Translations under genes and position numbers: made by a program | In this document: piece by piece, positions 16,275-34,458 of the stretch | Position numbering within the stretch: the stretch's first letter is position 1 | How the letters are laid out: each line of letters opens with the position of its first letter | The notes under the pieces: model-generated | Databases searched by the model: none | What the model was told of the DNA's origin: nothing | What the model saw: only the letters and a program-made list of their open reading frames with translations | Origin: Bacteroidota bacterium | GTDB taxonomy: Bacteria; Bacteroidota; Bacteroidia; Bacteroidales; VadinHA17 | Direction of reading: 5' to 3' | Assembly: GCA_022703405.1 (NCBI GenBank) | Contig: JAKLDT010000011.1 | Span: 1-34,692 of the forward strand | DNA length: 34,692 nucleotides

Positions 16275-16832
16275 ATGGAGTATTCTGATCAACAGCTTGT
16301 TGATAAGATAAGATCAGGTGATATTGCTGCTTTTGAAACTATTTTTAATAAGTTCTACATATATCTTTGTCTTTTGTCCGAGCATCTTGTAAGAAATCAG
16401 CATGATGCAGAGGAGATTGTATCAGATGTGTTTATGAAGGTATGGAATATCAGGGAAAAATTTGAAATCACAACATCGCTTAAAGCCTACCTCATCAGGG
16501 CTGTATACAATGCATCATTAAATCATATTGAGAGTAACAAATTCAGAAAAAAGCTGACTCAGAGCATTTCTGATTCAGATTATGAAATACTGGTCTGGGA
16601 TGACAATTACCCTCTCGGGCAGTTATTCGAAAAAGAGATTTTAGAAGTTTTAGATCAGGGTATAAATTCATTACCTGATGGATGCAGGCAAATATTTCTT
16701 CTCAGCCGCAATGAAAATATGAAATATTCAGATATTGCACAGAAGCAGGGAATATCAGTGAATACGGTAAAGACCCAGATGAAAATTGCCCTGTCACGAC
16801 TCCGAGAAAATCTAAAAGTCTTTCTTTCCTGA
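16275..16832 (+). CDS. ECF-type RNA polymerase sigma factor (FecI-like)
   Basis: A 185-residue sigma-70 family protein with only regions 2 and 4. Region 2 covers about 22-95 (FETIFNKFYIYLCLLSEHLV, then HDAEEIVSDVFMKVWNIREKFE). Region 4 covers about 128-182 with LPDGCRQIFLLSRNENMKYSDIA and the helix-turn-helix QGISVNTVKTQMKIALSRLR. No extra C-terminal domain is present. Such factors are held by a membrane FecR protein and released when substrate binds the partner SusC receptor. Eighty bp downstream is the fecR-like gene, followed by susC, the standard Bacteroidota order. Its expected targets are the susCD promoter and perhaps its own. Confidence 0.95.
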   Translation: MEYSDQQLVDKIRSGDIAAFETIFNKFYIYLCLLSEHLVRNQHDAEEIVSDVFMKVWNIREKFEITTSLKAYLIRAVYNASLNHIESNKFRKKLTQSISDSDYEILVWDDNYPLGQLFEKEILEVLDQGINSLPDGCRQIFLLSRNENMKYSDIAQKQGISVNTVKTQMKIALSRLRENLKVFLS

Positions 16833-16912
16833 AGAACTCCTGATTTTTTTCACTACTCTTTCACCCCGGATCTGTTTTTTCCTGTCTTTATAATCAGATC
16901 ATATATTATATT

Positions 16913-18070
16913 ATGCAACGAAACGAACATAAAGACCCGGCGGAAGAATTAATTCATGGTTATATTCAGGGGGAGCTAAGTGAGGATGAGGAGAAAAAGT
17001 TAATTGACTGGATAAAAGAAGATCCGGCCAATAAGAAATACTTTGATGAATATTGTGAAATATGGGTCAGTGCCAAAGCTTTACTGAAGAATCCCGGATA
17101 TAATTATCATGAAGGATTCTGGAAATTCAAGCATAAGATCAGTGAAGAAGCGAACAAGCCTGAATCATCAGATACAATTCGTATTATCAGGCTTATAACG
17201 AGGTATGCTGCAATTATAGTTATTACTATTTCTTTAAGCGGTTTTTTATTTTATCAATTAGGTAAAAGTAAAGCTGAATATCCGGTTGAGACAATCAGCG
17301 AATTGTGTGTTCCACTGGGTTCAAACGCCCACTTTTCATTATCAGATGGAACTACAGTAGCACTGAATGCAGGCAGCAGTCTTAAATATGACAATCGTTT
17401 CGGTCTAAAGGAAAGAGTTGTCCAGCTTGCAGGTGAGGGATATTTTAAAGTAGCAAAAGATACTCAGAAACCTTTCATTGTAAAAACTTCATGTCTGACT
17501 ATCAGAGCCCTGGGTACGGAGTTTAATGTGAGAGCTTATAGTGATGACAATAAGACCGAGGCTACACTTGTTGAAGGTTCCATAAAGGTAGAACCTGTAA
17601 ACGACGGGTATAAGGCTGAAGCTGTGATCCTTAAGCCAAATCAGAAGCTTACTTTTTACAGAAATGATTCAACCATGGTTGAAAATTCGGCTGTTTCAGA
17701 TGAAAATACAGGGAGTAAGACTCAACAAATAACTGAGCAAAAGATCAATTCAATTCCCAGGTTAGTAAAGGAAAATGTAGATGTGGAGAAAATAATTTCA
17801 TGGAAGGATAACAGGTGGATATTCGAAAGAGAAACTCTTTCAGAAATTGCTGTGGAACTTGAACGCAAATATAATGTTGAAATAAGGTTTGACTCGGAAA
17901 AGCTTATGAATTACAGGTTCACAGGCACCATAATTGCTGAGCCCATTGAGCAGGTGCTTGAAGCCATGAGTATTTCAGCTCCGATCCGGTACAAACTTGA
18001 AGGAAGGGTAGTGACATTATCTGAAAGCAGGAATTTTAAAGGTGTCAAAAACAATCTGTATAATAATTAA
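16913..18070 (+). CDS. FecR-family anti-sigma factor
   Basis: A 385-residue single-pass membrane regulator. The cytoplasmic N-terminal part (1-95), which should bind the sigma factor, carries HGYIQGELSEDEEKKLIDWI. The membrane helix is at about 98-116 (RYAAIIVITISLSGFLFYQL). The periplasmic FecR domain (about 125-225) has LPLGS-like VPLGSNAHFSLSDGTTVALNAGS and the GEGYFKV..PFIVKT..RALGTEFNVRAY sequence. The C-terminal DUF4974 domain (about 310-380) with FTGTIIAEPIEQVLEAMS probably touches the STN domain of the SusC receptor. It is a complete copy. A hairpin at 18132-18157 follows it. Confidence 0.94.
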   Translation: MQRNEHKDPAEELIHGYIQGELSEDEEKKLIDWIKEDPANKKYFDEYCEIWVSAKALLKNPGYNYHEGFWKFKHKISEEANKPESSDTIRIIRLITRYAAIIVITISLSGFLFYQLGKSKAEYPVETISELCVPLGSNAHFSLSDGTTVALNAGSSLKYDNRFGLKERVVQLAGEGYFKVAKDTQKPFIVKTSCLTIRALGTEFNVRAYSDDNKTEATLVEGSIKVEPVNDGYKAEAVILKPNQKLTFYRNDSTMVENSAVSDENTGSKTQQITEQKINSIPRLVKENVDVEKIISWKDNRWIFERETLSEIAVELERKYNVEIRFDSEKLMNYRFTGTIIAEPIEQVLEAMSISAPIRYKLEGRVVTLSESRNFKGVKNNLYNN

Positions 18071-18131
18071 AGTAAGCTGTACCTAAAGAAGTCTTTGCCT
18101 ATGGAACATTAAAAATTGCCTTGAAACCAAA

Positions 18132-18166
18132 GCGCAGGATGCTGTAACATCCCGCGCAGAGTTTTT
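18132..18166 (+). terminator. hairpin between fecR-like and susC genes, possible terminator or attenuator
   Basis: GCGCAGGATG (18132-18141) pairs with CATCCCGCGC (18148-18157) with one A/C mismatch around a CTGTAA loop. Four bases later comes a run of five T residues (18162-18166). It lies in the 162-bp gap before susC and could end the sigma/anti-sigma transcript, so that susC is mainly read from its own promoter, or act as a partial attenuator. Confidence 0.6.
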
Positions 18167-18232
18167 AAATTTCACCAATGCTGCCTTTTACCGGAAAACA
18201 TTGGATCATTTAACCAAAAACTATGCAAAATT

Positions 18233-21200
18233 ATGAAAAAAAAACTACCTAACACTATTCCGTTACCTATACCCGGAATAGAAAAACTCCTAATGATCAT
18301 GAAACTAGCTCTGATTATCGTTTTTTTAAGCGTTCTGCAGGTCAGTGCAAAAACCTATTCCCAGGTTACTGTCAACCTGGATTTTCAGGGTAAACCTATA
18401 CGTGAAGTACTGAAATCAATAGAAAAACAAAGTCAGGTCCGTTTTTTCTACAGTGACGACCTGATGGCTATGAATGATAGAATATCTGTATATGCGGAAA
18501 ACAGGAATATTATTAATGTGCTGGATGATATTTTTGCCGATACAAAACTCACTTATAAAAAGTATGACAATGATCTTATTGTAATTGCTCCAAGAGAGTT
18601 TTTACAGCAACAGGTAAGGGTAACAGGTACAATAATTGATGCGGGAACATCAGAACCTCTTGTTGGAGTGAATGTTGTACTTGAAGGTACTACAATTGGC
18701 GTTATGACCGACGTAAAAGGCAAGTTTACCCTGAATGTGCCAGACCTTACAGGAGCTCTTCAGTTTAGCTATATCGGTTATGTTGCACAGAGAATTCCTA
18801 TCAATGGTCAGACTGTAATAGATATTAAGCTTGCTTCAGACCTTCTTTCACTTGATGAAGTGGTTGTTACCGGGTATGGAACTGTAAAAAGGAGTGATCT
18901 GACAGGTTCTGTTAGTTCAATAAAAACAGAGCAGTTGCTGCAATTACCTACACAGCGTGTTGACCAGGCCATCCAGGGCAGGGCTACCGGTGTTTTTATC
19001 CTTAACACTGATGGTTCACCGGGGGGTAATACTCTTATACGTATCAGGGGCAGTAACTCAATTAATGGCGGAAACGATCCTTTGATCATTGTCGATGGTT
19101 TACAGGGCGCAAATATTAATCAGTTAAACCCTAATGATATTGAATCAATGGAAATCCTTAAGGATGCCTCAGCTACAGCAATATATGGTTCCAGGGGTGC
19201 AAATGGTGTTATCCTGATTACAACTAAACTGGGAAAGACTGGGAAACCTGTTATAGAGGCTGGCTACAGTATCGGCTTTCAAACCCTTGCACATAAGCTT
19301 GATGTAATGGATGCTGGTTCATTTGCAGAATATAATAACTGGTATCATAGTTTTGATACACAGGATGGGCAGACTCCAAAATATTATTTCACTCAGGCAG
19401 AAATAGATAATTACAAGAAGAATGGAGGTACCGACTGGCAGGATGAGATTTATGATGTTGGTGTTATGCAGACTTCAAACCTGGCAATTAGTGGTGCAAC
19501 TGACAGATTGAAATATATGGTTTCAACGGGTTACCTCGATCACCAGGGAATATTGTTAAACTCAGGCTATAACAGATTATCATTGAGGGCAAATCTGGCT
19601 GCAGATATAACGAGATGGGTTGACTTTGGCCTGAATTATTCATATACAAGTGAAAGGTATAAGTCTCCTCCATTTAATGCCAATTTATTTACTGCAGTAA
19701 ACAATGCTCCACGATGGGCTCCCACTGAACCGGTTTATGATGAATTCGGTAACTACGCCAGGCACAGGCCGGGATATGGTGCCTATGATACATGGAATCC
19801 GGTTGCAACTGCTCTGGAGACATTGATTGAAAATCCGACATACCAGAACAATATTAACATGTTCCTGAATTTTAAAATTGCAAAGGGACTGACTTTGAAG
19901 ATTATGGGTGGCGGAACATTTGCAAATGAGTATAACAACAAATATGAAAATACTAAAACCCGTAACGGTTATGCAATGAACGGAGTAGGAAGCGTCAGTA
20001 ACTCCTTCAGCAATATGTATCAGAATACCAATATTCTTACTTATGATAAAACAACGGGTATTCACCACATAACAGTTACAGGTGTGGCAGAGGAAATATT
20101 CAGTTCATGGTTCGGTAATTCAATGAACGGACAGGATTTTCTTGTCGACCAGCTGGGAACCGACAATATGGATGGTGCTAAATCAGTATCAGTTGACTCA
20201 TGGAGAGGAGAGAGAGCATTGGTCTCATTTATGGGACGAATTAATTATGGTCTGATGGACAAATATCTCCTTACATTAAGTTACAGGGCTGATGGCTCAT
20301 CTGTTTTTGGTGAGAATAACAAATGGGGTTACTTCCCCTCAGGTTCACTTGCATGGAGGATATCGCAGGAAGGCTTCCTCCAGGATTCAGAGGTTATTAC
20401 TGACCTTAAGCTGAGAATAAGTTATGGCGTTACAGGAAACCAGGGTATAAGCCCCTATGGATCGCTGGCCAGGCTGGGATCAGGTGAAAGTTACAGGTAT
20501 CCTTATATGAACGGGCAAAATCTTAATATCGGTTTCGGAATAGCAGGCATCGCTAATCCTGACCTGAAATGGGAATCTACTGCCCAGTCGAATATCGGGG
20601 TTGACGTATCATTGTTCAAAGGAAGGCTCATCTCCACAATAGATGTTTATCGTAAAGTAACTGAAGATCTTCTTATGCCAAGGCAGTTACCTGATTATGT
20701 TGGTGTGTCGAGTGTTATTGATAACATTGGATCTATCGAAAACAGAGGCCTTGAGATTATGATAGGTGGTGATCCTGTTGTGGGAAATTTCAGGTGGAAT
20801 ACATCACTCAATTTCACCATGAACCGAAATGAGGTACTTGACCTGGGTGAAGGTACTAAAAGAATTGGTTATACGCCCACCTCGGGAGGATACTCACTTG
20901 GCTCTTCCTATATGTTCCTTGAAGTAGGACAACCTTTTGGTCAGATGAGAGGATACAAATTCCTGGGTTTGTGGAGAGCTGATGAGGATGCTGAAGCAAG
21001 AGCTTACGGACAACTCCCCGGGTTACCTAAGTATGCTGATCTTACCGGCCCCAATGGTGTTCCCGATGGAATTGTCAATGAACTCGATAAAACAACTATT
21101 GGATATGGTTACCCCGATTTTACTATTGGATGGAACAACCTCTTCACATACAAAAACTTTGAGTTATCCTTCCTTGTTACAGGAGCCTATGGTGCCGACC

Positions 21201-21640
21201 TGTTCAATACAATCAGGATCCGCAGACAAACCTATGAGGGGAATGATCCAATTCTCTGGGATTACTGGACTCCGCAAAATCAGGACACAGATATTCCTGC
21301 ACGTTACGACGGTGCCTGGGTTCAGTCGCAGAACCTTGTTAATAAATACCTTCTCGGGAGTAGCGAAGGCGCTTCATCACGATGGGTGGAAGATGCTTCT
21401 TTTACAAGATTGAAGACTTTAACCCTTGCCTATAATTTTCAGCCTTCTATTCTGCAGAAGATCGGGTTTTCAAAAGCAAGATTGTTCTTCACCGGAACAA
21501 ACCTGATAACACTGACAAAATATACAGGGTACGATCCTGAAATAGCACAGTTCCCCACTAATGACGCGACAATCGGTGTCGATCAGAGTGTTTATCCGAC
21601 TGCCCGCATGTATACTTTTGGTGCTGATTTCACTTTCTAA
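18233..21640 (+). CDS. susC: SusC/RagA-family TonB-dependent outer-membrane receptor with STN domain
   Basis: A 1135-residue transducing receptor that imports glycan fragments through the outer membrane using TonB energy. After a signal peptide (to about 40, VSAKTYSQ) come an STN signalling domain (about 47-118), a carboxypeptidase-regulatory-like beta-sandwich (about 128-203) and the plug (about 213-332). The plug carries the DEVVVTGYGTVKRSDLTGSV junction, IRIRGSNS-type LIRIRGSNSINGG and RGANGVILITTK. The beta-barrel fills the remainder and ends in aromatic FTF. The STN domain explains the sigma/FecR genes upstream. The SusD gene starts 20 bp after the stop. Substrate cannot be read from the sequence. 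I see no frameshift. Confidence 0.96.
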   Translation: MKKKLPNTIPLPIPGIEKLLMIMKLALIIVFLSVLQVSAKTYSQVTVNLDFQGKPIREVLKSIEKQSQVRFFYSDDLMAMNDRISVYAENRNIINVLDDIFADTKLTYKKYDNDLIVIAPREFLQQQVRVTGTIIDAGTSEPLVGVNVVLEGTTIGVMTDVKGKFTLNVPDLTGALQFSYIGYVAQRIPINGQTVIDIKLASDLLSLDEVVVTGYGTVKRSDLTGSVSSIKTEQLLQLPTQRVDQAIQGRATGVFILNTDGSPGGNTLIRIRGSNSINGGNDPLIIVDGLQGANINQLNPNDIESMEILKDASATAIYGSRGANGVILITTKLGKTGKPVIEAGYSIGFQTLAHKLDVMDAGSFAEYNNWYHSFDTQDGQTPKYYFTQAEIDNYKKNGGTDWQDEIYDVGVMQTSNLAISGATDRLKYMVSTGYLDHQGILLNSGYNRLSLRANLAADITRWVDFGLNYSYTSERYKSPPFNANLFTAVNNAPRWAPTEPVYDEFGNYARHRPGYGAYDTWNPVATALETLIENPTYQNNINMFLNFKIAKGLTLKIMGGGTFANEYNNKYENTKTRNGYAMNGVGSVSNSFSNMYQNTNILTYDKTTGIHHITVTGVAEEIFSSWFGNSMNGQDFLVDQLGTDNMDGAKSVSVDSWRGERALVSFMGRINYGLMDKYLLTLSYRADGSSVFGENNKWGYFPSGSLAWRISQEGFLQDSEVITDLKLRISYGVTGNQGISPYGSLARLGSGESYRYPYMNGQNLNIGFGIAGIANPDLKWESTAQSNIGVDVSLFKGRLISTIDVYRKVTEDLLMPRQLPDYVGVSSVIDNIGSIENRGLEIMIGGDPVVGNFRWNTSLNFTMNRNEVLDLGEGTKRIGYTPTSGGYSLGSSYMFLEVGQPFGQMRGYKFLGLWRADEDAEARAYGQLPGLPKYADLTGPNGVPDGIVNELDKTTIGYGYPDFTIGWNNLFTYKNFELSFLVTGAYGADLFNTIRIRRQTYEGNDPILWDYWTPQNQDTDIPARYDGAWVQSQNLVNKYLLGSSEGASSRWVEDASFTRLKTLTLAYNFQPSILQKIGFSKARLFFTGTNLITLTKYTGYDPEIAQFPTNDATIGVDQSVYPTARMYTFGADFTF

Positions 21641-21659
21641 CAACATTAAAATTACAATC

Positions 21660-23114
21660 ATGAATATAAAAAGATCAAAAATATTGAGTCTGGTAATGTT
21701 GTCAGGATTTTTACTACTTCTTACCGGATGTGAGAAACTTAAAGAAAAGCCAACAGATTTCGTCGGACCTGATAATTTTTTTAAAACACCGGCACAGGTT
21801 GAATCTGCATTTGTCAGTGCAATGCAAAGACAATGGGGCGGATGGCAGTTTTACGACTGGATGGGCAGCCCTGAATGGCCTGCTCAGGATGATCAGTTAT
21901 ATGGAGGAGAACTGGTAATTGGCGATAATGATGCGGCAGGCAGCTGGCAGGTTCATTATCAGGCAATAGCCGACCTGAATCCTGCAATAAAAGCCCTTGT
22001 TAATGATCAGCTGGGAGCTGGAGTTCCCCAGGAAACAAAAGACCAGCTGATGGCAGAGGCAAAATTCCTCAGAGCATTTAATTATTTTTGGCTTGTAAGG
22101 CTTTATGGTGATGTTCCTCTTATTCTTGAAAACACTGATGTAATAAAAGGAGAGATTGAAAGGTCTCCTGTAGCTGCTGTTTATGATCAGATAGTTGAGG
22201 ATATGCTGTTTGCAGTACAACACCTTCCTGAAGTCTGGGATAGTGATAATAATGCCCGTCCAACCTCAGATGTAGCCAGGGGAATTCTTGCAAAAGTATA
22301 TATAACAATGGCCACAGCTCCCTTGAATGCAACAGCAAACTATGCCAAAGCCAGGGATATGGCAAAACAGGTAATGGATGGCGGACGTTACAGCCTTGTC
22401 CCGAAAGTTGAGGATGTGTTTAAAATGAGCAATGAGTTTGGCCCTGAGTTCATGTGGGCATGGCATAATTCTGAGGAAGAATATGTAATTGAACCTCAGA
22501 TATGGCTTCCTGGTGAAATGGCCGGGGGTTGGGGTGATGTTACTGCTGAAAAAATCTGGGGGGAAGCCTTTCCGGAAGAACCACGCAAGCATGCATATCT
22601 GCTGCTTGAGGATCTTTGGTTCGGAACTGGCACTACATATCTTGAATGGTACAAATCAGCTCCTTATGTAAGGAAGTTCCTCTATGACACTCCTGAAAAT
22701 ATGGAAAAGAACGTTTCATACCAGGCTCAACCTATACTTCGATATGCTGATGTTCTGTTACTGTTTGCCGAAGCTGAAAATATGGTGAACGGACCTACAC
22801 AGGCAGCCTGTGATGCAGTAAACCAGATAGTTGAAAGGGCAACAGGCGGAATACCCAATCCTGCTGATCCCTTATTTACAACTGCTATGTCGAAAGAACA
22901 GTTTGATGAAGCTGTGATACAACAGCGAAGCCTTGAGCTTTGTTTTGAATATGACCGTTGGTTCGACATCTGCAGGAAAAGGATATTGGATAAGGTAACA
23001 GATCCTGATTACCTGCCAAATTATTCGGAGTATGATTATCTTATGCCTGTACCCCAGAAAGATCTGCGGCTGAATAAGAGTCTCTCTCAGAATCCGGGAT
23101 ATACAAGACCATAG
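21660..23114 (+). CDS. susD: SusD/RagB-family glycan-binding lipoprotein
   Basis: A 484-residue surface lipoprotein that caps the SusC channel and captures glycan. The ATG at 21660 (MNIKRSKILSLVMLSGFLLLLTGC) puts the lipobox LTGC at the right distance with C24 as the lipidated residue; the frame is open upstream to 21561, but that would bury the signal. The acidic/basic residues after Cys (EKLKEK) fit outer-surface export. Typical SusD features are KFLRAFNYFWLVRLYGDVPL, then RYADVLLLFAEAEN, and the C-terminal QRSLELCFEYDRWFDICR, with NPGYTRP at the end. It is 20 bp from susC and clearly co-transcribed. A hairpin follows at 23139-23175. Confidence 0.95.
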   Translation: MNIKRSKILSLVMLSGFLLLLTGCEKLKEKPTDFVGPDNFFKTPAQVESAFVSAMQRQWGGWQFYDWMGSPEWPAQDDQLYGGELVIGDNDAAGSWQVHYQAIADLNPAIKALVNDQLGAGVPQETKDQLMAEAKFLRAFNYFWLVRLYGDVPLILENTDVIKGEIERSPVAAVYDQIVEDMLFAVQHLPEVWDSDNNARPTSDVARGILAKVYITMATAPLNATANYAKARDMAKQVMDGGRYSLVPKVEDVFKMSNEFGPEFMWAWHNSEEEYVIEPQIWLPGEMAGGWGDVTAEKIWGEAFPEEPRKHAYLLLEDLWFGTGTTYLEWYKSAPYVRKFLYDTPENMEKNVSYQAQPILRYADVLLLFAEAENMVNGPTQAACDAVNQIVERATGGIPNPADPLFTTAMSKEQFDEAVIQQRSLELCFEYDRWFDICRKRILDKVTDPDYLPNYSEYDYLMPVPQKDLRLNKSLSQNPGYTRP

Positions 23115-23138
23115 TGGTTTTTTAGTTTAGGTTTATTG

Positions 23139-23203: not shown

Positions 23204-23253
23204 ATAGGGATACTCTAAGTACACTGAAGTAGAAAGTGCTTCAATATCATCTG

Positions 23254-26200
23254 ATGACAAAATCAAAATTCCTTAAGATCAGATTATTATTGTTGTTTGT
23301 TGCCTTTATTGCCCTGACCTGCAGGAGAAGTGATCAGGAATACAGGCAGGAATCCGGTACTCAGTTCCGGAGTATCCCTCCCGGCGAAAGCGGGATAAAA
23401 TTTAAAAATCAGCTCCAGGAGACCGACAGTGCAAACTCTATCTTCTACGAATATTATTATAACGGTGCAGGCCTTGCAACAGGAGACCTGAATAATGACG
23501 GCTTAAGTGATATTGTCTTTGGGGCTAACATGACCAAATGCAGGATTTACCTGAACAATGGTAATTTTGTATTTACCGACATTACTGAGGAAAGCGGAAT
23601 TAATACCACAGGCAAATGGATAACCGGAGTAAGCATGGTGGATATTAATCACGATGGCTGGCTGGATATCTATTTCTGTGCTGCAGGTAATATCGATTAT
23701 GATTACCATAATTTGCTTTACATCAACAACGGGGATAGTGGAAAACTGACTTTTAAGGAATGTGCTGCTGACGTTGGTCTTGATGATAACGGCTATTCTA
23801 CACAGGCTGAATTTTTTGATTATGACCTGGATGGTGACCTTGATGCCTACATAGTTACAGCAGCAATGACAACACCAAATAAAAATGCTATAAGGCAGCG
23901 AAAAAATGACGGATCAATGATCAATACCGACAGGTTATACAGGAATGAAGGTATAGATGCCCGCACAGGATTGCCGTTTTTTCGGAATGTCTCAAAACAG
24001 GCTGGCGTAACATGGGATGGATTCGGTCTGGGGGCAGCAGTATGTGATATAAACAAAGATGGCTGGCCCGATATCTACGTCGGGAATGATTATATATCTA
24101 ATGACCTTCTCTATGTGAACCAGGGTGATGGCACCTTCAGGGAAATGCTGAAAGATTATATGAAGCATACAAGTAACAGTACTATGGGAGTCGATATAGC
24201 TGATTTCAATAATGACGGTTTAATCGATGTTCTAACCCTGGATATGCAGCCTGAGGATTATTTCAGGAAAAGGACAATGGCAGGCAATATGCGTACATAT
24301 ACAAGATATAGAAATGAGCTGAAGGCCGGCTATTCTCCGCAGTATGTGCGTAATATGCTTCATGTCAACATGGGGGAAATTGAAGGTCGGTACAGATTCA
24401 GTGAAATAGGACAGATGGCCGGGATTTTTGAGACTGACTGGAGCTGGGCTCCGCTCTTTGCAGATTTTGACAATGATGGTTTTAAAGACCTCTTCATCGG
24501 AAACGGGATAGGACATGATATGACAAATATGGATTTCTCTTCCTTATGGATGACAACGATAAAGAAGAATCCGGAAATTGAATTCGCTGTACTTTACAAA
24601 CTTCTTAAAAATGACCTTGATAAACGGGGAAATGTGAAAAAACCAAACGTAATTTTCCGTAATTCAGGAGGCTTGATCTTTGAGAATAAAACTGCTGAAT
24701 GGGGTTTGGAGCAGCCTATTTATTCACCTGGATCTGCATTCTCCGATCTCGATAATGACGGAGATCTTGACCTTGTTTTAAATAATATCAATGATTTTGC
24801 CTCAGTTTATGAGAACCGTATTATTAATAAGGATTCTGTAAACAGGAACAATCACTATCTTATAATTCAACTGTCGGGAGATTCATTTAACAAGGGTGGA
24901 ATAGGGGCGAAGATCAGTATATTCTGCAGTAAGGATCTGCAGTATTATGAACATTTCCCTATAAGAGGTTTTCAGGCAATGATGGATCCCAGAATTCATT
25001 TCGGATTGGGTGAAAAAAATATGATCGATTCATTACATATAAGGTGGCCTGATGGGAAGGAACAAGAATTGCACAATCTGCCTGTCAACCAGATGCTCAC
25101 ATTATATTATTCCAATTCTTCCTTCCGGAATGCAACAAGTATCTCAAAATCAGACAACAATGGGTTTTTTAAATCAGTCAGGGGAAAACTGAATACAGAT
25201 TATTTCCATAATGAAAAAGTATTTGTTGATTTCGAATATCAGCCGCTTGTCCCTCACATGTATTCTCAGGAGGGTCCTGGAATAGCGGTCGGCGATGTTA
25301 ACTCAGACGGGATGGATGATTTCTTCATTAGTGGTTCCACGGGCTTCTCCGGAGAAATCTTTGTTCAGCAGAGAACAGGTAAATTCTTTTCATACCCTTT
25401 ACCGGGAGATAATAATTATGAGGATATGGGGTCACTTTTTTTTGATGCTGACGGTGATGGTGATCAGGATCTCTATATAGTGAGCGGAGGATCGGGCCTG
25501 CCGCCTGGAAGCCGGTATTATGCTGACAGATTGTATATCAACAACGGTAAGGGTAAATTTCTTCACGACACCAAATCATTGCCAGATGTGCGTGTTTGTG
25601 GTTCCCAGGTTACAGCATCAGATTTTGATAAGGATGGGGATCTTGATTTATTTGTTTGCGGAAGAGTTGACCTTGAAAATTATCCGCTTCCGCCCAGAAG
25701 CTTTCTTTTGAGAAATGATAGTAAGGGAAATACAGTAAGATTTGCTGATATAACTTCACAGGTCAACCGTGAACTTGAAAGACCCGGGCTGCTGGCATCA
25801 TCAGTCTGGACCGATTTTAATAATGACGGATGGACTGACCTGATACTTGCCGGAGAATGGATGCCTCTCACTTTCTTTAAAAATGAACATGGGAAACTGA
25901 TCAATGTAACAACATCCACCGGTATTGAAAGCTATACAGGCTGGTGGAACAGTATTGCCGGCGCCGATTTTGACAAGGATGGTGATACAGACTATGTTGC
26001 CGGTAACCTGGGATTAAATACACAATACAAAGTATCGCAGTCTGAACCGATGCGGATTATGGCAAAAGATTTTGACAGGAATGGCACTTCAGATCCTGTT
26101 TGCAGTTATTATGTTCAGGGGAAGAGTTATCCAATTTATCAGAGAAATACTCTTCTTATACAGATCCCTTCATTAAGGAACCGGTATAAAACTTATGAAG

Positions 26201-26859
26201 ATTATGCAAAGGCCTTATTGGATGATATCTTTCCTGTGAATACCAGGAGGGATGCTTATGTGAGAGAAAGTCGTTTATTCGAGACTTCATACATTGAAAA
26301 TCTGGGGAATGGTAAATTCAGGCTTTCTCCGCTTCCGGATGAAGCGCAAACAGCTCCCATATACGGTATTCTTGCAAATGATTATAACGCTGACGGAAAC
26401 AACGATATCCTGCTTGCCGGCAACTCGTACTCAACCTCAATATCCGACGGGCAGTACGATTCATTTTGCGGCCTTTTGCTGGCAGGAGACGGAAAAGGGA
26501 ACTTCAAACCTGTTCAACCACGTGAGAGCGGATTCTTTGCTGATGGTGATTCAAAAGCAATGGCAGAACTTACAATGAAGGATGGGAGTTCAATTATTCT
26601 TATTTCCAGAAATTCTGATAGCCTTAAAGTCATAAAGTCATTAAAATCACCTGAGCGTATAATAAGGCTGAAAAGTGATGATGTTTCTGCAAGACTTATA
26701 TATCAAAATGGGGATAAGGAATACCGGGAGTTCTATTATGGCAGCGGGTACCTTTCACAATCATCAAGAGTTTGTAAGGTGCCGTCCGGAGTAATAACGG
26801 TCAGTCTCATCAACTATAAGGGAGAGATCAGAAATAAAAACTTAAAGGACAAAATGTAA
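23254..26859 (+). CDS. large exported VCBS/FG-GAP repeat protein with ASPIC/UnbV domain
   Basis: About 1201 residues from the ATG at 23254; an ATG at 23236 adds six. The N-terminus (MTKSKFLKIRLLLLFVAFIALTC) is a signal peptide with a possible but imperfect lipobox at Cys23. The body holds about fourteen calcium-binding D-x-(D/N)-x-D-G loops typical of beta-propeller blades. Examples are DLNNDGLSDIV, DINHDGWLDIY, DYDLDGDLDAY, DLDNDGDLDLV, DADGDGDQDLY and DFDKDGDLDLF. An ASPIC/UnbV domain, related to animal CRTAC1, covers about 535-620 (GGIGAKISIFCSKD..IRWPDGKEQEL) and splits the propeller repeats into two groups. Such proteins commonly accompany SusCD loci and are thought to bind glycan or proteins at the surface; the role is unproven. 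Confidence 0.88.
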   Translation: MTKSKFLKIRLLLLFVAFIALTCRRSDQEYRQESGTQFRSIPPGESGIKFKNQLQETDSANSIFYEYYYNGAGLATGDLNNDGLSDIVFGANMTKCRIYLNNGNFVFTDITEESGINTTGKWITGVSMVDINHDGWLDIYFCAAGNIDYDYHNLLYINNGDSGKLTFKECAADVGLDDNGYSTQAEFFDYDLDGDLDAYIVTAAMTTPNKNAIRQRKNDGSMINTDRLYRNEGIDARTGLPFFRNVSKQAGVTWDGFGLGAAVCDINKDGWPDIYVGNDYISNDLLYVNQGDGTFREMLKDYMKHTSNSTMGVDIADFNNDGLIDVLTLDMQPEDYFRKRTMAGNMRTYTRYRNELKAGYSPQYVRNMLHVNMGEIEGRYRFSEIGQMAGIFETDWSWAPLFADFDNDGFKDLFIGNGIGHDMTNMDFSSLWMTTIKKNPEIEFAVLYKLLKNDLDKRGNVKKPNVIFRNSGGLIFENKTAEWGLEQPIYSPGSAFSDLDNDGDLDLVLNNINDFASVYENRIINKDSVNRNNHYLIIQLSGDSFNKGGIGAKISIFCSKDLQYYEHFPIRGFQAMMDPRIHFGLGEKNMIDSLHIRWPDGKEQELHNLPVNQMLTLYYSNSSFRNATSISKSDNNGFFKSVRGKLNTDYFHNEKVFVDFEYQPLVPHMYSQEGPGIAVGDVNSDGMDDFFISGSTGFSGEIFVQQRTGKFFSYPLPGDNNYEDMGSLFFDADGDGDQDLYIVSGGSGLPPGSRYYADRLYINNGKGKFLHDTKSLPDVRVCGSQVTASDFDKDGDLDLFVCGRVDLENYPLPPRSFLLRNDSKGNTVRFADITSQVNRELERPGLLASSVWTDFNNDGWTDLILAGEWMPLTFFKNEHGKLINVTTSTGIESYTGWWNSIAGADFDKDGDTDYVAGNLGLNTQYKVSQSEPMRIMAKDFDRNGTSDPVCSYYVQGKSYPIYQRNTLLIQIPSLRNRYKTYEDYAKALLDDIFPVNTRRDAYVRESRLFETSYIENLGNGKFRLSPLPDEAQTAPIYGILANDYNADGNNDILLAGNSYSTSISDGQYDSFCGLLLAGDGKGNFKPVQPRESGFFADGDSKAMAELTMKDGSSIILISRNSDSLKVIKSLKSPERIIRLKSDDVSARLIYQNGDKEYREFYYGSGYLSQSSRVCKVPSGVITVSLINYKGEIRNKNLKDKM

Positions 26860-26884: not shown

Positions 26885-28690
26885 ATGAAAACACAGACAA
26901 TTCAATTGTTTTTTCATCTGGGAAAAACATGGACAGATAGAACCTGTCAGTATTTTTTACTTACACTGTTTTTTATAATTTATTTTTACGGAGCCAGCGC
27001 ACAGGAGCCTGTAAAATCGGAAGAAATTAAAATATGGGCAGTCCCGGGCGAGCAGAAGGTCCGACCTGATGATATTCCTGAAACAAATAATCTTGTATGG
27101 TCGGCAGATAAAAAGGCAATTAAGGTTTCAGGAGCAGGAAATGAACATGTTCCGTTCCAGCTTGTGATATCCACGCCTGTGCCTCCGGGATGGAAGCCAA
27201 AAGCTCCGGATGGATTTTTCGTGACGGCATCAGATCTGAAATCTGATAAAGGTAATCTGATTCAAAATAAACAAGTCAGTCTGTTTCTTGAGCATTATAT
27301 TCAGATCTATGCAAAATCGAGTCCGGTAGGTGCTACCGGGTACTGGCCCGATGCTCTAGCTCCTCTGAAGGAGCCATTCAGCATGCAGGCTCAGTACGCT
27401 GTAGTGGGCAACAGGCCTGTCTGGATCGATATATTCATTCCAACAGGTACTCCGAAAGGTATTTACAGAGGAAAAATAACAATTACAAAATCTGAGAAAA
27501 TAATTGAAACACTTGCCGTTGAAGTTGAGGTCTTTGGTTTCTCGCTTCCAGATGAAACTCACCTTATTACCTATATGAATATTTCGAAGAGCGAAATTGC
27601 ACGGTTCTATGGCAAGCAAGTTTCATCACCTGAACTTGAGGAGCTTACCAGAAACTATTTTACCTTCCTTGATGAACACAGGATGGAAACATGGTTCAAT
27701 GACCCTCTTGTGCCTGATATTGTCGTTAAAGGGGAGTCTGTTGAGGTTAAATTCAATGACCAGAGATATGACCAGTATCTTAATAAGCAGAAAACAAAGA
27801 GAGTAATTCTTGAAACTGCTCCGAATGAGATTTTGAGAAATTCAGGAGAAGACCAATTCTCTGATGCCAATATCAGAATGGTTAAACAGTACCTGTCATC
27901 AGTAGAGTCATATTTCAGACGTAATGGCTGGAGGGACCGCCTGGTCTTCAACAGCCCAATTGATGAGCCAAATACTAAAAAGGATTATGAAGAGACCAGA
28001 AAATGGGCACAGCTTGTTCATGAAACGGTTCCCGGTATACCATTCTTGGCAACTGAGTCTCCGGTTACAGACAATCCCGAATGGGGGACGTTGAGAGGTT
28101 ATGTGAACAATTTCTGTGTTCATGGGAATAATCTCAATGATCCTGAGGTTAAGAAAGCTTTGCGCGAGGAGCAGGTGAAAGGTGGTGAAGCAACCTGGTA
28201 TATCTCCTGCGACCAGGCATATCCTCAGCCAAATTATTTCATAGATGCGCCTGCCCTTGATCCGGTAATGATCCCTTGGATCACAGAAAGATACAAAATG
28301 AACGGATTCCTTTACTGGGCTGCTAATTTCTGGAACCAGACCCCTGACCCATGGCTCGATCCGGTGACTTTTATCTCGGGATTTGCCTGTAGTAACGGAT
28401 ATGTTCTGAACGGTGAAGGATCATTGATCTACCCGGGAAACCACACAAAAACCTATACAGGACAGCCGGATGTAAATGGCGCTGTTTCTTCTATCCGATT
28501 TGAGCTTCTGCGCGACGGGATAGAAGACTATGAGTACCTGTGGATGCTGAAAGAAAGGGGTGATGCAACTTTTGCTGAACAGATTGTTAACAATATGGTA
28601 ATCGATGTAAGCACTTTCTCACGTAACCTTAATGAGCTCTATTTGGCCAGGAGGGCCATGGCTGAAAGGCTGGAGAAATTGACAAAATGA
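26885..28690 (+). CDS. DUF4091/GH123-like glycoside hydrolase, exported
   Basis: A 601-residue protein with an N-terminal hydrophobic signal (about 22-39, ending YGASAQ). An N-terminal beta-sandwich (about 45-215) includes VPFQLVISTP and GTPKGIYRGKITI, and a (beta/alpha)8 barrel follows (about 225-530). The barrel carries NSPIDEPN; the adjacent D360-E361 matches the Asp-Glu pair used for substrate-assisted catalysis in GH123 beta-N-acetylgalactosaminidases. Then come ATWYISCDQAYPQPNYFID and GFLYWAANFWN, family hallmarks, and a C-terminal helical part with RFELLRDGIEDYEYLWML. It starts 25 bp after the ASPIC gene, so they share a transcript. Activity on N-acetylhexosamine is inferred from the dyad. 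Confidence 0.87.
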   Translation: MKTQTIQLFFHLGKTWTDRTCQYFLLTLFFIIYFYGASAQEPVKSEEIKIWAVPGEQKVRPDDIPETNNLVWSADKKAIKVSGAGNEHVPFQLVISTPVPPGWKPKAPDGFFVTASDLKSDKGNLIQNKQVSLFLEHYIQIYAKSSPVGATGYWPDALAPLKEPFSMQAQYAVVGNRPVWIDIFIPTGTPKGIYRGKITITKSEKIIETLAVEVEVFGFSLPDETHLITYMNISKSEIARFYGKQVSSPELEELTRNYFTFLDEHRMETWFNDPLVPDIVVKGESVEVKFNDQRYDQYLNKQKTKRVILETAPNEILRNSGEDQFSDANIRMVKQYLSSVESYFRRNGWRDRLVFNSPIDEPNTKKDYEETRKWAQLVHETVPGIPFLATESPVTDNPEWGTLRGYVNNFCVHGNNLNDPEVKKALREEQVKGGEATWYISCDQAYPQPNYFIDAPALDPVMIPWITERYKMNGFLYWAANFWNQTPDPWLDPVTFISGFACSNGYVLNGEGSLIYPGNHTKTYTGQPDVNGAVSSIRFELLRDGIEDYEYLWMLKERGDATFAEQIVNNMVIDVSTFSRNLNELYLARRAMAERLEKLTK

Positions 28691-28796
28691 TAATCACTGT
28701 TAATTAATTATCAAAGAAAAGCCGGATAGTTTGAAATTTAAAGTGTTTAAGAAACGGGATAGGAGAATACATGGGATCAGATTGAATTTTTTTAAA

Positions 28797-28804: not shown

Positions 28805-28855
28805 AACTACAGTGATTTCAAATAATTATTGTTAACGATATAAATCAACAGAACA

Positions 28856-30148
28856 ATGGAAAGTAATAGCATTTCAAGAAGGAAATTTGTAAAAGGAGTG
28901 GCAGGGAGTGCTGCAGGAATTGCAGTATTCGGAGGCAGTCCTGGGATGTCGGCTTTAAGTTATTCGCGTATTTCCGGAGCGAATGAACGGATAAATATTG
29001 GTGTTATTGGGTGCGGAGGAATGGCTGGTAGCCATATAGAGGCCTTGCTGGCAATGAAGCAATCAGATAATATCGATATTACTGCTGTTTGTGATATATA
29101 TACTACAAGGCTTGAGAAGGCTAAAGAGCTTACAAAAGCGCGGGCTTTTAAAAATTACAAGGAGATACTGCAGGATAAGGACATTGATTATGTGCTGATT
29201 GCAACTCCAGAACACTGGCATTATCAGATGACACTGGATGCAATAAGTGCTGGAAAACACATTTACGTTGAAAAACCTATTACCCATACTATTGAGCAGG
29301 CTAAAGACATTTGCCAGAAAATGTCAGCGACAAAATTAAAATTACAGGTAGGGGTTCAGGGGATGTCGGATGATTCTTATGAAACCGCGAATAAAATGAT
29401 TCAGGAAGGAGCACTCGGGAAAGTTGTTATGGCTCATATTGATTATTCCAGAAACTATCCTGATGATTTCTGGGCATACCCAATCGATGAAGATGCCAGA
29501 CCCGGAGTAAATCTCGATTGGGAAGCATGGCTCGGCCCGGCACCAAAAAGGCCCTGGGACCCGCGAAGATACTTCCAGTGGAGAAGGTACTGGGATTATT
29601 CAGGAGGCATCGCAACAGATTTGTTCATTCACCGGGTGACAAGGATTATAAAATCACTGGGACTGAGCTTTCCTGATTATGTTGCCGCTACCGGTGGCAC
29701 CTGGAATTTTGTAAACAGCGTGGCTGAGATTCCTGATACATTTAATATGATGCTCGACTATCCTGAAAAAACAACTGTCATGGTTGTTTCATCACTGGCA
29801 AATGATATGCCAATCAGGCATGTGATAAGAGGGCACAAGGCAACACTCGAATTTACAAAAGAAGGCTTTACAATTACACCACAGGAGCAATCGGAAATGG
29901 CTAAAATAAGTGGTACAGGCGAAGCAGTAAAAGGTGCTAGTCTTTTTACACATAAGAAAAACGGCGCCGAAGATGTAACTCTGCACCACAGAAATTTGCA
30001 GGCTGCAATAAGAAAAAATGAACCTCTTAAGTGCGATCATAACCTTGGCATGTATGGTGTGGTAGCATGTATGATGGGGGTTGAATCATTCCGTAACAGG
30101 AAATACCTGAAATGGGATCAGCAGAATAAAAAGGTTATTGAGAGCTGA
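28856..30148 (+). CDS. Tat-exported Gfo/Idh/MocA-family oxidoreductase
   Basis: A 430-residue NAD(P)-dependent sugar oxidoreductase. A twin-arginine signal ([23 protein letters not shown], positions 5-27, longest part [10 protein letters not shown]) indicates export with bound cofactor. The Rossmann fold begins [15 protein letters not shown] (47-60). The catalytic lysine is in YVEKPITHT (K140), and the [10 protein letters not shown] motif (250-259) supplies the usual Asp and His. The C-terminal alpha/beta domain has [17 protein letters not shown]. Relatives oxidise, epimerise or, in GH109, hydrolyse glycosides by a redox mechanism with tightly held NAD. It may therefore make 3-keto sugars or act as a glycosidase. 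It follows the first DUF4091 gene by 165 bp. Confidence 0.9.
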
Positions 30149-30411: not shown

Positions 30412-32163
30412 ATGAAATATTTGTTTTTTACAGCTGTCATATTGCTTGCGGGCTGTGCGCAATCAACGAAAGACAGCAGCTACAGCAAACCGGGAAATGA
30501 GGTATACAGCGAACTGAAAAATCCTGCATCTGCCCCGCTTGCTGAATGGCCTAATATGCCGGGAGAAACAAATGTCAGCTTTGGAGATGATAATATAAGG
30601 TATCCTAAAGAAAGGGTCCCGTCAGTGACATATTCAGAATGGGTTGCCTATGCCTGGAAGGGAGAAAAGGTTCATACACAGGTTCTTGTCTATTCAAAAT
30701 CGAGAATACCCGAACTGAGAGTCATTGCAGGTGACCTCATAGACGACAGTGGAAACCGCATTGTCAGCAGCAATATTGAAACAGGCTTTGTCCGTTATGT
30801 AATGACTGATGAGTTCGGGGAGGGTTGCGACATCCGTTATCCCGGGAAATATGATTCTTCACTGGTGGCTGATCCAATAGACATTGTCGATCACATCGAA
30901 GTTAAAAAGAACTCAGTACAGCCTGTATGGCTTACAGTAAAAGTTCCTGCAGAAACTCCTGCCGGAACCTACAGGGGAGAGCTGCTTGTTAAAACAGGCA
31001 GGGAGTTCAGACTTCCGGTAACAATTAATGTAGCTGATCATATTCTCCCTCCTCCGTCGGAATGGAAATACGACCTGGATCTTTGGCAGAATCCCGATCC
31101 TGTTGCTAAGGTACATGGCGTAAAACTGTGGAGCGATGAACACTACAGGCTCATGAAGCCTTATTATGAGATGCTTGCTGCTGCCGGCCAGAAAAGCATA
31201 ACAGCTTTTATTATTGATCAGCCCTGGGGCCCTGACCACGTCTATCACAGGGACCCTTCACTAATTTCATGGACTAAAAGAAAGGACGGCAGCTGGTCTT
31301 ATGATTATTCTGTTTTTGATAAATATATCGGTTTTGTGATGAGCTGCGGAATAGACAGGCGGATAAACTGCTATTCCATGATCACCTGGGACCTGAGGTT
31401 TATCTATTTTGATGAGGCTAAGGATGATACGGCTTCCGTATATGCACGTCCCGGCACTCGTGAATACCTGGATATCTGGCTGCCGATGATCACTGATTTT
31501 ACAGCGCATCTTAAGTCCAAAGGCTGGTTTGAGAAAACAACAATTGCAATGGATGAGAGGGATATGCAGGGTATGCTGGAAGTGATGAAGCTTCTGAAAT
31601 CGGTTGATCCCGCATGGAAAACAGCCCTGGCCGGAAATTACCACAGGGAAATAGCAATGGACATTTATGATTACTGTATTATATGGGGTAAGAAATTTGA
31701 CAGGGATATCCTCGATGCAAGAAGAGCTGCGGGTCTGCCAAGCACATATTATACAGCATGCGGAGAGAGGCGTCCCAACTGCCATTCATTTTCTCCACCC
31801 GCTGAAGCAACATGGATCAGCTGGTTTGCTGCAGCACAAGGATACAGCGGATATCTCAGATGGGCTTATAACAACTGGACAAGCGATGTGCTTCATGATA
31901 CACGATACAAGACCTGGCCTGGCGGCGAATGTTACCAGATCTACCCCGGTCCGCGTTCATCAATACGCTATGAGAAACTAATTGAAGGAATACAGGATTT
32001 CGAAAAGATAAGGATTCTCAGGGAGCAGTTTACTACCGAAAAAAATAAGGTGAAGCTTGCTGAAATTGATAAGATGCTGGCCCCGTTCACTGCAGAAAGT
32101 ATTGAGAAGGTTCCTGCAGCCAGCATGGTAAAAACAGCCAGGACCACACTTGCCGGATTATGA
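30412..32163 (+). CDS. DUF4091/GH123-like lipoprotein
   Basis: A 583-residue lipoprotein: MKYLFFTAVILLAGC gives a textbook lipobox (LAGC, C15). The N-terminal beta-sandwich (about 70-210) has VAYAWKGEKVHTQVLVYS and VPAETPAGTYRGELLVKT. The barrel (about 220-540) carries TIAMDERD with D381-E382, matching the Asp-Glu dyad of GH123. Also typical are SPPAEATWISWFAAAQGYSG, LRWAYNNW, and the C-terminal IRYEKLIEGIQDFEKIRILRE. It is distant from the other DUF4091 gene at 26885, so the two are not a simple duplication. Membrane anchoring versus the soluble form of the first suggests successive steps on one glycan. It opens the last block, followed by GH88 82 bp later. Confidence 0.88.
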   Translation: MKYLFFTAVILLAGCAQSTKDSSYSKPGNEVYSELKNPASAPLAEWPNMPGETNVSFGDDNIRYPKERVPSVTYSEWVAYAWKGEKVHTQVLVYSKSRIPELRVIAGDLIDDSGNRIVSSNIETGFVRYVMTDEFGEGCDIRYPGKYDSSLVADPIDIVDHIEVKKNSVQPVWLTVKVPAETPAGTYRGELLVKTGREFRLPVTINVADHILPPPSEWKYDLDLWQNPDPVAKVHGVKLWSDEHYRLMKPYYEMLAAAGQKSITAFIIDQPWGPDHVYHRDPSLISWTKRKDGSWSYDYSVFDKYIGFVMSCGIDRRINCYSMITWDLRFIYFDEAKDDTASVYARPGTREYLDIWLPMITDFTAHLKSKGWFEKTTIAMDERDMQGMLEVMKLLKSVDPAWKTALAGNYHREIAMDIYDYCIIWGKKFDRDILDARRAAGLPSTYYTACGERRPNCHSFSPPAEATWISWFAAAQGYSGYLRWAYNNWTSDVLHDTRYKTWPGGECYQIYPGPRSSIRYEKLIEGIQDFEKIRILREQFTTEKNKVKLAEIDKMLAPFTAESIEKVPAASMVKTARTTLAGL

Positions 32164-32245
32164 TATATGGGAATATTTGCTTCTCCTGAATTGAAAATTA
32201 ACTTTACATCCATCTTACTTAAATTAATAAAAGAGTAACCCTGAA

Positions 32246-33628
32246 ATGATAAAAATTGACTTCAGCATTAATAATGAGGCCCTTTCACAAAAGCTGACAG
32301 GATTCTGGCAGTTGTCAGGTAAAAAAATACATCTTATTGAAAAAGAGTATGGTGAGGGGAAGGGTTCGCCTGTCTTTACAGTTAAGGGAAAATATACAAC
32401 ACGCGGATGGACTGAATGGACACAGGGCTTTCAGTATGGTTCATCGATATTGCAATTCGATGCTACCGGAGAGAAAATGATGCTTGAGAACGGCAGAAAG
32501 AAAACACTGGAAAAAATGGCTCCTCATGTAAGCCATATCGGAGTGCATGATCATGGCTTCAACAATGTAAGCACTTATGGAAACCTGCTGAGGCTGATGA
32601 GGGAGGGCAAAATACCTTACAATGAGTGGGAAAAGAATTTTTATGAAATGGCTCTCAAAATCTCCGGCGCAGTACAAGCCTCGCGTTGGACAGCTGTAAG
32701 GGATGGTGGATTTATTCATTCTTTCAACGGTGCTCATTCACTTTTTGTTGACACAATACGTTCCTGCCGGGCACTTATTGTAAGCCATACTCTTGGACAT
32801 GTGTTCCAGGGAGAGGGCGACGCCAGGATAAGTCTGCTCGAACGGGCTCTTCTCCACATGAAGGCCACTGCAAAATATTCTGTGTTTTATGGCGAAGGAC
32901 GCGACAGTTATGATGTATGGGGCAGGACAGCACACGAAAGCATTTTCAATGTGAAGGATGGCAATTTCAGGTGCCCCGGTACCCAGCAGGGTTACTCGGG
33001 CTTCAGCACGTGGACGCGTGGCCTGGCATGGGCAATGTGTGGTTTTGCAGAACAGCTTGAGTGGATAAGTTCTGTAAAGGAGGAAGAACTTGCTGACTTT
33101 GGCGGAAAAGAAGGACTTAAGGCAATATTCCTCCGTGCTGCAAAAGCCACCTGCGACTTTTATATTGCAAATACACCAACCGACGGTGTACCTTACTGGG
33201 ACACCGGAGCCCCAGGCCTTGCTAATATGGGAGCTTATACCGATAAACCTTCAGATCCTTTTAACCAGCACGAACCTGTCGACAGTTCAGCTGCTGCTAT
33301 TGCAGCACAGGGACTACTGAGGCTCGGTCATTATCTTTCTGAAAACGGTGATCCGGAAGATGGCAGGACCTACTGGCAGGCAGGTCTTTGCGTTGTAAAT
33401 ACCCTTTTATCAGAACTTTACCTGAGTACTGATCCGTCTCACCAGGGACTTCTACTGCATACAATTTACCACAGACCCAATGGCTGGGACCATATCCCTG
33501 AAGGAAGCAAAATACCTTACGGTGAATCGTGCATGTGGGGAGATTACCATTTCCGTGAAGTGTGTCTTTACCTTGGCAGGATAATAAGCAGGGGAAATTA
33601 TTATACATATTATAATTGTGTGAGATGA
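32246..33628 (+). CDS. GH88-like unsaturated uronyl hydrolase, cytoplasmic
   Basis: A 460-residue (alpha/alpha)6-barrel enzyme of the GH88 type, longer than the usual 370-400. Conserved blocks are WTEWTQGFQYGSSI (55-68), HIGVHDHGF (97-105), SFNGAHSLFVDTIRSC (159-174), and QQGYSGFSTWTRGLAWAMCGF (247-267, shown here as QGYSGFSTWTRGLAW). Others are VPYWDTGAP and PVDSSAAAIAAQGLL. D102 and D169 correspond to the two catalytic aspartates (88 and 149) of Bacillus UGL. GH88 hydrates the double bond of 4,5-unsaturated uronic acids left by polysaccharide lyases and so frees the end sugar. There is no signal peptide, so it acts on imported oligosaccharides. The next gene starts within its stop codon. 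Confidence 0.88.
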   Translation: MIKIDFSINNEALSQKLTGFWQLSGKKIHLIEKEYGEGKGSPVFTVKGKYTTRGWTEWTQGFQYGSSILQFDATGEKMMLENGRKKTLEKMAPHVSHIGVHDHGFNNVSTYGNLLRLMREGKIPYNEWEKNFYEMALKISGAVQASRWTAVRDGGFIHSFNGAHSLFVDTIRSCRALIVSHTLGHVFQGEGDARISLLERALLHMKATAKYSVFYGEGRDSYDVWGRTAHESIFNVKDGNFRCPGTQQGYSGFSTWTRGLAWAMCGFAEQLEWISSVKEEELADFGGKEGLKAIFLRAAKATCDFYIANTPTDGVPYWDTGAPGLANMGAYTDKPSDPFNQHEPVDSSAAAIAAQGLLRLGHYLSENGDPEDGRTYWQAGLCVVNTLLSELYLSTDPSHQGLLLHTIYHRPNGWDHIPEGSKIPYGESCMWGDYHFREVCLYLGRIISRGNYYTYYNCVR

Positions 33629-34458
33629 ATGCTGAACCGGTGAAGGACCTTTCGAGGCTGTGCCTGCATACAATAACAACAAAGCCATGGAACATTGAGG
33701 AGGCTGCACGTAACTATTCAAAGGCTGGTGTGAAAGGAATAACAGTGTGGCGGGACACTCTTGAAGGCAGGGACATAATAAAAACAGGAGGTCTGCTTCG
33801 TGAAAGCGGCCTGCATGTTGTCTCTCTCTGCCGGGGTGGCTTTTTTGCTAACACAGAAAAAGCAAAAAGAGATCTTGCAATTACTGATAACCGCAGGGCC
33901 GTTGAGGAAGCCTTTAAGCTGGGAACTGACAAGATTGTACTTGTCTGCGGCGCTGATCCACGCCAATCTCTCGAAGATTCAAGGAAGCAGATCTATGACG
34001 GAATATGCGAAGTATTGCCCGATGCAAAAGCAGCAGGTGTTAAACTGGCTGTTGAACCACTTCATCCAATGTTTGCCGATACAAGGTCAGCTGTAAATAC
34101 AATCAAACAGGCAAATGATCTTGTTGAGGCTATTGACAGTGAGTATGTTGGTGTTGCTGTTGATGTTTACCATCTCTGGTGGGATCCCGACCTGGAAGAG
34201 GAAATTTACAGGTGCGGAAAGAACAGAAATCTCCTGGCCTTTCATATCTGCGACTGGAAGTCTCCAACTGTTGATATGCTCAATGACCGCGGACTGATGG
34301 GAGAAGGATGCATCAATCTCAGGAAAATAAGATCATGGGTGGAAAAGGCAGGCTTCAATGGTTTCATCGAAGTGGAGATCTTCTCCAACTTATGGTGGAA
34401 ACAGGATCAGAATGAGTTTTTGGAGAGAATTGTTAGGGCTTATAAGGAACATGCGTAA
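33625..34458 (+). CDS. cytosolic sugar isomerase/epimerase-like TIM-barrel protein
   Basis: 277 residues from the ATG at 33625, which overlaps the GH88 stop as ATGA and implies translational coupling; an ATG at 33616 would add three residues. It is a xylose-isomerase-like barrel with the metal-ligand set E144 (VEPLHP), D180 (AVDVYHLWW), H207 (AFHICDW) and E249 or E251 (FIEVEIFSN). Nothing suggests export. Relatives interconvert keto and aldo sugars, as in hydroxypyruvate or tagatose-type isomerases. Its tie to GH88 suggests it works on the sugar released there, perhaps the 4-deoxy-keto-uronate or the amino sugar. It differs from the Tat-exported isomerase at 13852, which has a signal peptide and another sequence. 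Confidence 0.88.
   Translation: MNAEPVKDLSRLCLHTITTKPWNIEEAARNYSKAGVKGITVWRDTLEGRDIIKTGGLLRESGLHVVSLCRGGFFANTEKAKRDLAITDNRRAVEEAFKLGTDKIVLVCGADPRQSLEDSRKQIYDGICEVLPDAKAAGVKLAVEPLHPMFADTRSAVNTIKQANDLVEAIDSEYVGVAVDVYHLWWDPDLEEEIYRCGKNRNLLAFHICDWKSPTVDMLNDRGLMGEGCINLRKIRSWVEKAGFNGFIEVEIFSNLWWKQDQNEFLERIVRAYKEHA

Follow-up and report, generated by a model that had tools for sequence, protein, structure and literature searches.

Gene content of the locus

The locus described here lies on contig JAKLDT010000011.1 (C13) of a metagenome-assembled genome (MAG) of a Bacteroidota bacterium, which comprises 3.43 Mb in 382 contigs and is 75 % complete; the entire contig of 34,692 bp was analysed and is referred to as the window. 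From position 16275 onwards, a run of genes on the plus strand encodes an ECF sigma factor, FecR, SusC, SusD, an ASPIC protein, GH123a, a Gfo/Idh/MocA oxidoreductase, GH123b, GH88L, and TIM, with intergenic spacings of 25 to 263 bp, overlaps apart (Table 1). By its SusC-SusD pair, linked regulator, and carbohydrate-active enzymes, the run is a polysaccharide utilization locus (PUL), which leads directly into GH88L and TIM. The signalling and uptake genes of the original prediction (sigma, FecR, STN-SusC, SusD) were all recovered, the STN domain of SusC scoring slightly below its cutoff (25.4 versus 28.4 bits); that description was incomplete, as it lacked the Tat-like Gfo/Idh/MocA gene, the ASPIC/FG-GAP gene, and the TIM isomerase (33616-34458), the latter within its own span.

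Table 1. Features of the locus. Percentages refer to the orthologous PUL of G089, a genome of the same genus.
Feature	Position	Strand	Evidence
ECF sigma factor, Bacteroidetes type	16275..16832	+	TIGR02985 165.2 bits (cutoff 126.4); 79 %
FecR anti-sigma factor	16913..18070	+	PF04773, PF16344 above cutoffs; 79 %
SusC-type TonB-dependent transporter	18233..21640	+	TIGR04056 898 bits; 92 %
SusD-type lipoprotein	21660..23114	+	PF07980, PF14322; 86-92 %
Large FG-GAP/UnbV_ASPIC protein	23236..26859	+	PF13517 210 bits, PF07593 89 bits; lipobox-like N-terminus; 81 %
GH123a, GH123-type (DUF4091) enzyme	26885..28690	+	PF13320 91.8 bits; PDB 8k2f E 9.1e-31; DE pair 360-361; 73 %
Gfo/Idh/MocA oxidoreductase, twin-arginine-like N-terminus	28856..30148	+	PF01408 98.9 bits; 91 %
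GH123b, GH123 protein, lipobox-like N-terminus	30412..32163	+	PF13320 334.8 bits; PDB 5l7r E 3.7e-150; DE pair 381-382; 70 %
GH88L, divergent GH88-fold enzyme	32246..33628	+	no signal-like N-terminus (by eye); first cassette gene in relatives
TIM, xylose-isomerase-like TIM barrel, SMc04130 type	33625..34458	+	PF01261 138.4 bits; PDB 3qc0/3ju2/7vpf
GC-rich palindromic repeat	34501..34522		170 bases short of contig end

Several starts were adjusted. The TIM open reading frame (ORF) opens at 33616, and a start at 33625 would leave a 4-base overlap with GH88L, as in many relatives. We moved the SusD start from 21561 to 21660, an ATG that would give a lipobox, while ATG 23254 may be an alternative start of the ASPIC gene, whose product is a putative surface glycan-binding protein. 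With up to three mismatches, the palindrome matches at its own position (both strands) and once more at 10415-10436, against 0 matches expected, and it is a possible cause of the assembly break. Promoter and terminator scans stayed near chance level.

A divergent pair of GH123 proteins

The PUL is distinguished by its unusual pair of GH123 enzymes. Since both match the catalytic domain PF13320 and the N-terminal domain PF22680 above cutoff, GH123a and GH123b are members of one family, far apart within it; they align to each other at 24 % identity over a stretch (E 3.4e-5), which contradicts their earlier description as unrelated. Their Asp-Glu pairs had rightly been called GH123-style, as D360-E361 aligned onto the DE pair of 8k2f and D381-E382 onto that of 5l7r, both solved GH123-type enzymes. 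The former structure, nearest to GH123a, carries the name of an oligosaccharide-releasing beta-N-acetylgalactosaminidase, and the latter we take to be BvGH123. According to excerpts of PMC11087588, the DE motif provides the acetamido stabiliser and the acid/base, and tested members show beta-N-acetylgalactosaminidase activity. Release of beta-linked N-acetylgalactosamine (GalNAc) is predicted for GH123a and GH123b. With these GH123/DUF4091 enzymes (5l7r and the Nga enzymes of the same excerpts) both window proteins share the catalytic and N-terminal domains, the DE pair, and a sequence match, but here two divergent GH123 proteins of predicted activity occur in one locus, accompanied by ASPIC and Tat-like Gfo genes.

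The two proteins furthermore look like a conserved pair: among the 120 matches listed for each, their relatives had 15 exactly equal contig sizes of at least 7 kb in common, versus 0.1 expected from shifted sizes. A search with GH123a in 295 genomes of the order found only GH123a itself; with GH123b, matches were obtained in 10 of 395 genomes of the class, and the nine loci examined were other loci (40-52 % identity). Elsewhere (L159:8586-12491), a single open frame of 1301 aa joins a NAGLU alpha-N-acetylglucosaminidase domain and a GH123 domain.

GH88L is a divergent relative of UGL

By Pfam score alone, GH88L stays below the cutoff (PF07470, 20.9 versus 26.6 bits), a model that is precomputed on many of the 120 relatives listed. 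Its kinship to GH88, as originally predicted, is settled because fold and residues match: the predicted fold is nearer to UGL than to GH105 and covers nearly the whole chain of UGL (PDB 1vd5), and the UGL active-site residues W42, F46, D88, D149, and H193 are matched in GH88L. The counterparts of the UGL Asp pair and His (D88, D149, H193), namely D102, D169, and H230, are invariant in 21 GH88L sequences and also common to four proteins annotated as GH88, with D102 and H230 confirmed by HMMER; going by the roles in UGL, D169 is presumably the acid/base, with D102 in support. Unlike UGL, to which it is 21-24 % identical, GH88L has extra loops, looks cytosolic, and is coupled to TIM, Gfo381, and a short-chain dehydrogenase/reductase (SDR) instead of a linked lyase, its substrate being predicted. 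A protein search yielded at least 8000 relatives, and among the matches listed, those with a name are often called "unsaturated chondroitin disaccharide hydrolase". If the cassette neighbours do something else, this name misleads models of glycosaminoglycan (GAG) and uronate turnover.

A widespread GH88L-TIM-Gfo381-SDR cassette

GH88L is the head of a mostly free-standing cassette, which we regard as the more interesting part of the locus. Elsewhere this cassette reads GH88L-TIM-Gfo381-SDR, often with a permease, and it recurs across many Bacteroidota families (relative to the window, GH88L reaches 65-80 % and TIM 55-76 %; relative to locus L007, Gfo381 reaches 71-94 % and the SDR 43-76 %). 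A strict-spacing recount retained 67 of 77 unique GH88L; for five of the ten that were missed, the locus listing does show TIM or an old yellow enzyme (OYE), with overlapping ORFs. Loci of the Spirosoma/Emticicia type, among them L011, L017, L018, L022, and L025, have an OYE-like flavoprotein of ~481 aa in place of TIM and Gfo381 and retain a Gfo434 oxidoreductase after the SDR.

Residues E147, D183, H210, and E254 of TIM are invariant among 11 sequences, a set common to many sugar isomerases of the TIM-barrel fold; beyond SMc04130 and 7vpf (both uncharacterised), only IolI is somewhat prominent in its fold list. The KduI-KduD and DhuI-DhuD clusters covered in excerpts of PMC12838403 resemble the cassette in that a GH88-type enzyme is accompanied by an isomerase-type gene and an SDR, whereas the cassette isomerase is an SMc04130-type TIM barrel, its SDR scores below the KduD cutoff, and Gfo381 is an extra. 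Literature searches aimed at the cassette turned up no account of it, and the parts of PMC10434189 retrieved contain nothing but tabulated entries for other B. thetaiotaomicron genes. Thus, the cassette is very widespread, conserved, and apparently unstudied in the literature, and it constitutes a compact, testable pathway.

Linkage of the cassette to the PUL

Within the flanks examined, none of 79 anchored GH88L loci contained a GH123 relative, and 6 contained a SusC or SusD relative; in one of the 79 (L006), a GH123 is present farther off on the same contig. As a proxy for linkage, we took exactly equal contig sizes between GH88L and GH123 relatives, with 120 matches listed per search. Only contigs of at least 7 kb were counted, because an equal size of short 2,258-bp contigs, too small for both genes, was a coincidence. 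Among the matches listed, such a size was shared by 7 of 13 GH88L relatives at 80 % identity or more versus 1 of 32 below, and in one case GH88L and GH123b share, by equal size, one 7,269-bp contig. In a quick tree of 157 GH88L entries, all five GH123a-linked ones fall into a well-supported set of 22 (SH-aLRT 97, no bootstrap), the smallest such set that includes the window and exceeds five entries; P0020, a linked entry of the 80 % group outside this set, is identical to the GH88L of G089. The linkage is confined almost wholly to the closest relatives of the window.

In G089, the orthologous PUL lies on a 42,657-bp contig, carries a second ASPIC-type gene and a GH28 as extras, and differs from the window in gene order; no sulfatase was found among the genes scanned. 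The PUL is followed by an SNF2 helicase and an opposite-strand block with an esterase and a GH88 protein above the Pfam cutoff, and GH88L-TIM-Gfo381 occurs together with another TIM barrel 14.5 kb from the PUL. Since G089 carries both PUL and cassette at this distance, their linkage is conserved, their adjacency not. The GH28-type protein (PF00295, 89.8 bits; L168:7193-9853) sits inside the orthologous PUL and is missing from that of the window; it may point to uronic acid in the target glycan.

The apparently missing partner enzymes

As the original prediction had it, the window ORFs scanned (all but a few small ones) included no lyase, sulfatase, sugar permease, or KduI/KduD, but this absence says little, because the window is the whole contig of a fragmented, incomplete MAG and ends only 234 bp past the isomerase gene. 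Likewise, no DhuI (RpiB/LacA/LacB-type) isomerase occurred among the window proteins scanned, with the cassette presumably truncated by the contig end; this search did not extend to the rest of the genome. Contig C328 carries a KduI (NF002091, 422.7 bits, cutoff 250) 0.5 kb from an SDR (PRK07097, 420.6, cutoff 369). This is the sole KduI-family match of the genome and none lies on C13, so the KduI-KduD pair is not in the locus; a hybrid kduI-dhuD cluster is reported in Bacteroidota by excerpts of PMC12838403.

Lyases and KduI were counted in 19 cassette-bearing genomes of the family. A KduI-family match was present in 14, this genome (G000) included, and a Hepar_II_III lyase in 16, among them all 12 with at least 90 % completeness and at most 5 % contamination; in G000 itself, no Hepar_II_III-type lyase was found. 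Lyase_8 occurred in 2 of the 19 and in 0 of 14 control genomes, which leaves its negatives without a positive control. Gfo381 was not found in the bin of this genome (best 30 %). The partner enzymes are likely encoded beyond the end of the contig or in another part of the genome, and their apparent lack is mostly an effect of both. Among the three options originally offered (partners outside the window, scavenging of lyase products made by others, or another function of the GH88-like enzyme), the first is best supported, by KduI and SDR on C328, by the Hepar_II_III counts, and by the presumed continuation of the operon past the contig end. What looks like an incomplete PUL can hence result from an assembly edge together with a recruited cassette.

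Elsewhere in G000 (L134, C124:12001-23661), an SDR that is 71-79 % identical to those of the cassette in seven loci of the same genus occurs without GH88L, TIM, or Gfo381. Its neighbours are a YceI-type relative and a gene related, at 55 %, to the one preceding GH88L in L122, with 44 % relatives farther off in others; C124 seems to be a cassette site that was emptied or never filled in this genome.

A model for the locus and its alternatives

On balance, we lean towards a PUL with two GH123 enzymes, directed at beta-linked GalNAc, which runs directly into GH88L-TIM, the start of a separate, widespread cassette that likely hydrates 4,5-unsaturated uronides in the cell and converts the resulting keto-uronate. 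The glycan would be sensed by the sigma/FecR pair through STN-SusC, and oligosaccharides would be bound and imported by SusC/SusD and the ASPIC protein. Outside the cytoplasm, GH123a and GH123b would act on beta-GalNAc linkages, and oxidation of a glycoside may fall to the Gfo/Idh/MocA protein, which would be exported by Tat. In the cytoplasm, GH88L would use the UGL mechanism to hydrate a delta-4,5 uronide, freeing 4-deoxy-5-keto-uronate. TIM would isomerise this product and the SDR or Gfo381 reduce it, a step that parallels KduI-KduD or DhuI-DhuD but has a different isomerase fold. The cassette presumably continues past the contig end in this genome, where the KduI-SDR pair on C328 could also perform the isomerase-reductase step. 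Other organisms, or lyases encoded at other sites, would supply the unsaturated ends.

We suggest, more tentatively, that the GH88L-TIM-Gfo381-SDR genes form a catabolic route, undescribed and phylum-wide, by which unsaturated or keto-uronides are broken down. It would either add a third isomerase solution to KduI and DhuI or be an oxidation-elimination pathway that needs no lyase and has a GH88 hydratase, and a Bacteroidales lineage would have hitched it to a GalNAc-glycan PUL.

The strongest rival, although we consider it unlikely, is that the cassette performs oxidation, elimination, hydration, and reduction: Gfo381 would oxidise a (uronic) glycoside at C3, TIM beta-eliminate the aglycone, GH88L hydrate the enol ether, and the SDR reduce the ketone, so that no polysaccharide lyase is needed, and none was seen in the window. 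Two points here weigh against the hydration model that we favour, as the four cassette genes fit these four chemistries exactly, one to one, and Gfo381 finds no explanation in a scheme of hydration, isomerisation, and reduction. Excerpts of two papers describe related chemistry: TIM-type proteins of the levoglucosan pathway annotated as sugar phosphate isomerases perform beta-elimination and hydration (PMC7676230), and AtOGE performs beta-elimination with a metal site on strands 5-8 (PMC10628242), to which the invariant TIM residues may be compared. Both pathways, in these excerpts, combine Gfo/Idh/MocA, isomerase-like TIM barrel, and reductase as the cassette does, but the cassette has GH88 instead of a second isomerase-like protein, and sequence similarity is weak. 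Weak, in particular, are the matches of Gfo381 to DgpA (E 8e-9) and, for that of L007, to the levoglucosan dehydrogenase model (62.6 bits, cutoff 650); the window Gfo likewise falls short of its best NCBIfam model, the BT_2158 glycoside 3-dehydrogenase (150.6 bits, cutoff 750). The retention of the UGL residues in GH88L favours hydration of unsaturated uronides over this pathway.

Similarly improbable, in our view, is a single PUL that extends from sigma to TIM and targets a GAG-like polymer of uronic acid and N-acetylhexosamine; GH88L would then act on disaccharides that a missing lyase of the PUL itself produces. GH88L does begin 82 bp past GH123b on the same strand, its closest kin show linkage to GH123 relatives, and Hepar_II_III lyases occur in 16 of the 19 cassette-bearing genomes of the family; yet the cassette lies mostly outside PULs, Lyase_8 was found in 2 of the 19, and the G089 PUL has a GH28, no sulfatase among the genes scanned, and GH88L at a distance. 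What stands of the glycan locus originally proposed is a GalNAc-type PUL beside an unsaturated-uronide-type enzyme, but not that GH88L defines the PUL's food. Least probable is a chance neighbourhood, in which a rearrangement put GH88L-TIM behind the PUL with no functional link, as the distance and differing gene order in G089 and the C124 SDR beside a relative of the L122 gene might suggest; against it, the linkage recurs in the closest relatives.

Other genes of the window

Upstream of and divergent from the PUL lies a tandem pair of NagX-like membrane proteins (11528-13825, minus strand), which score 138 and 131 bits against the NagX model for glucosamine N-acetyltransferase (cutoff 480). 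Next to them come another AP_endonuc_2 TIM barrel, the second of the window (13852-14808), and a thioredoxin-like gene; in G089, too, a thioredoxin-like relative (79 % over 200 aa) borders the sigma gene. A DUF5107/TPR protein (7294-10398, plus strand) lies between two nitrilase-type genes (6134-7126, minus strand; 10467-11198, plus strand), and a 56 % relative of its gene sits three genes upstream of GH88L in L010.
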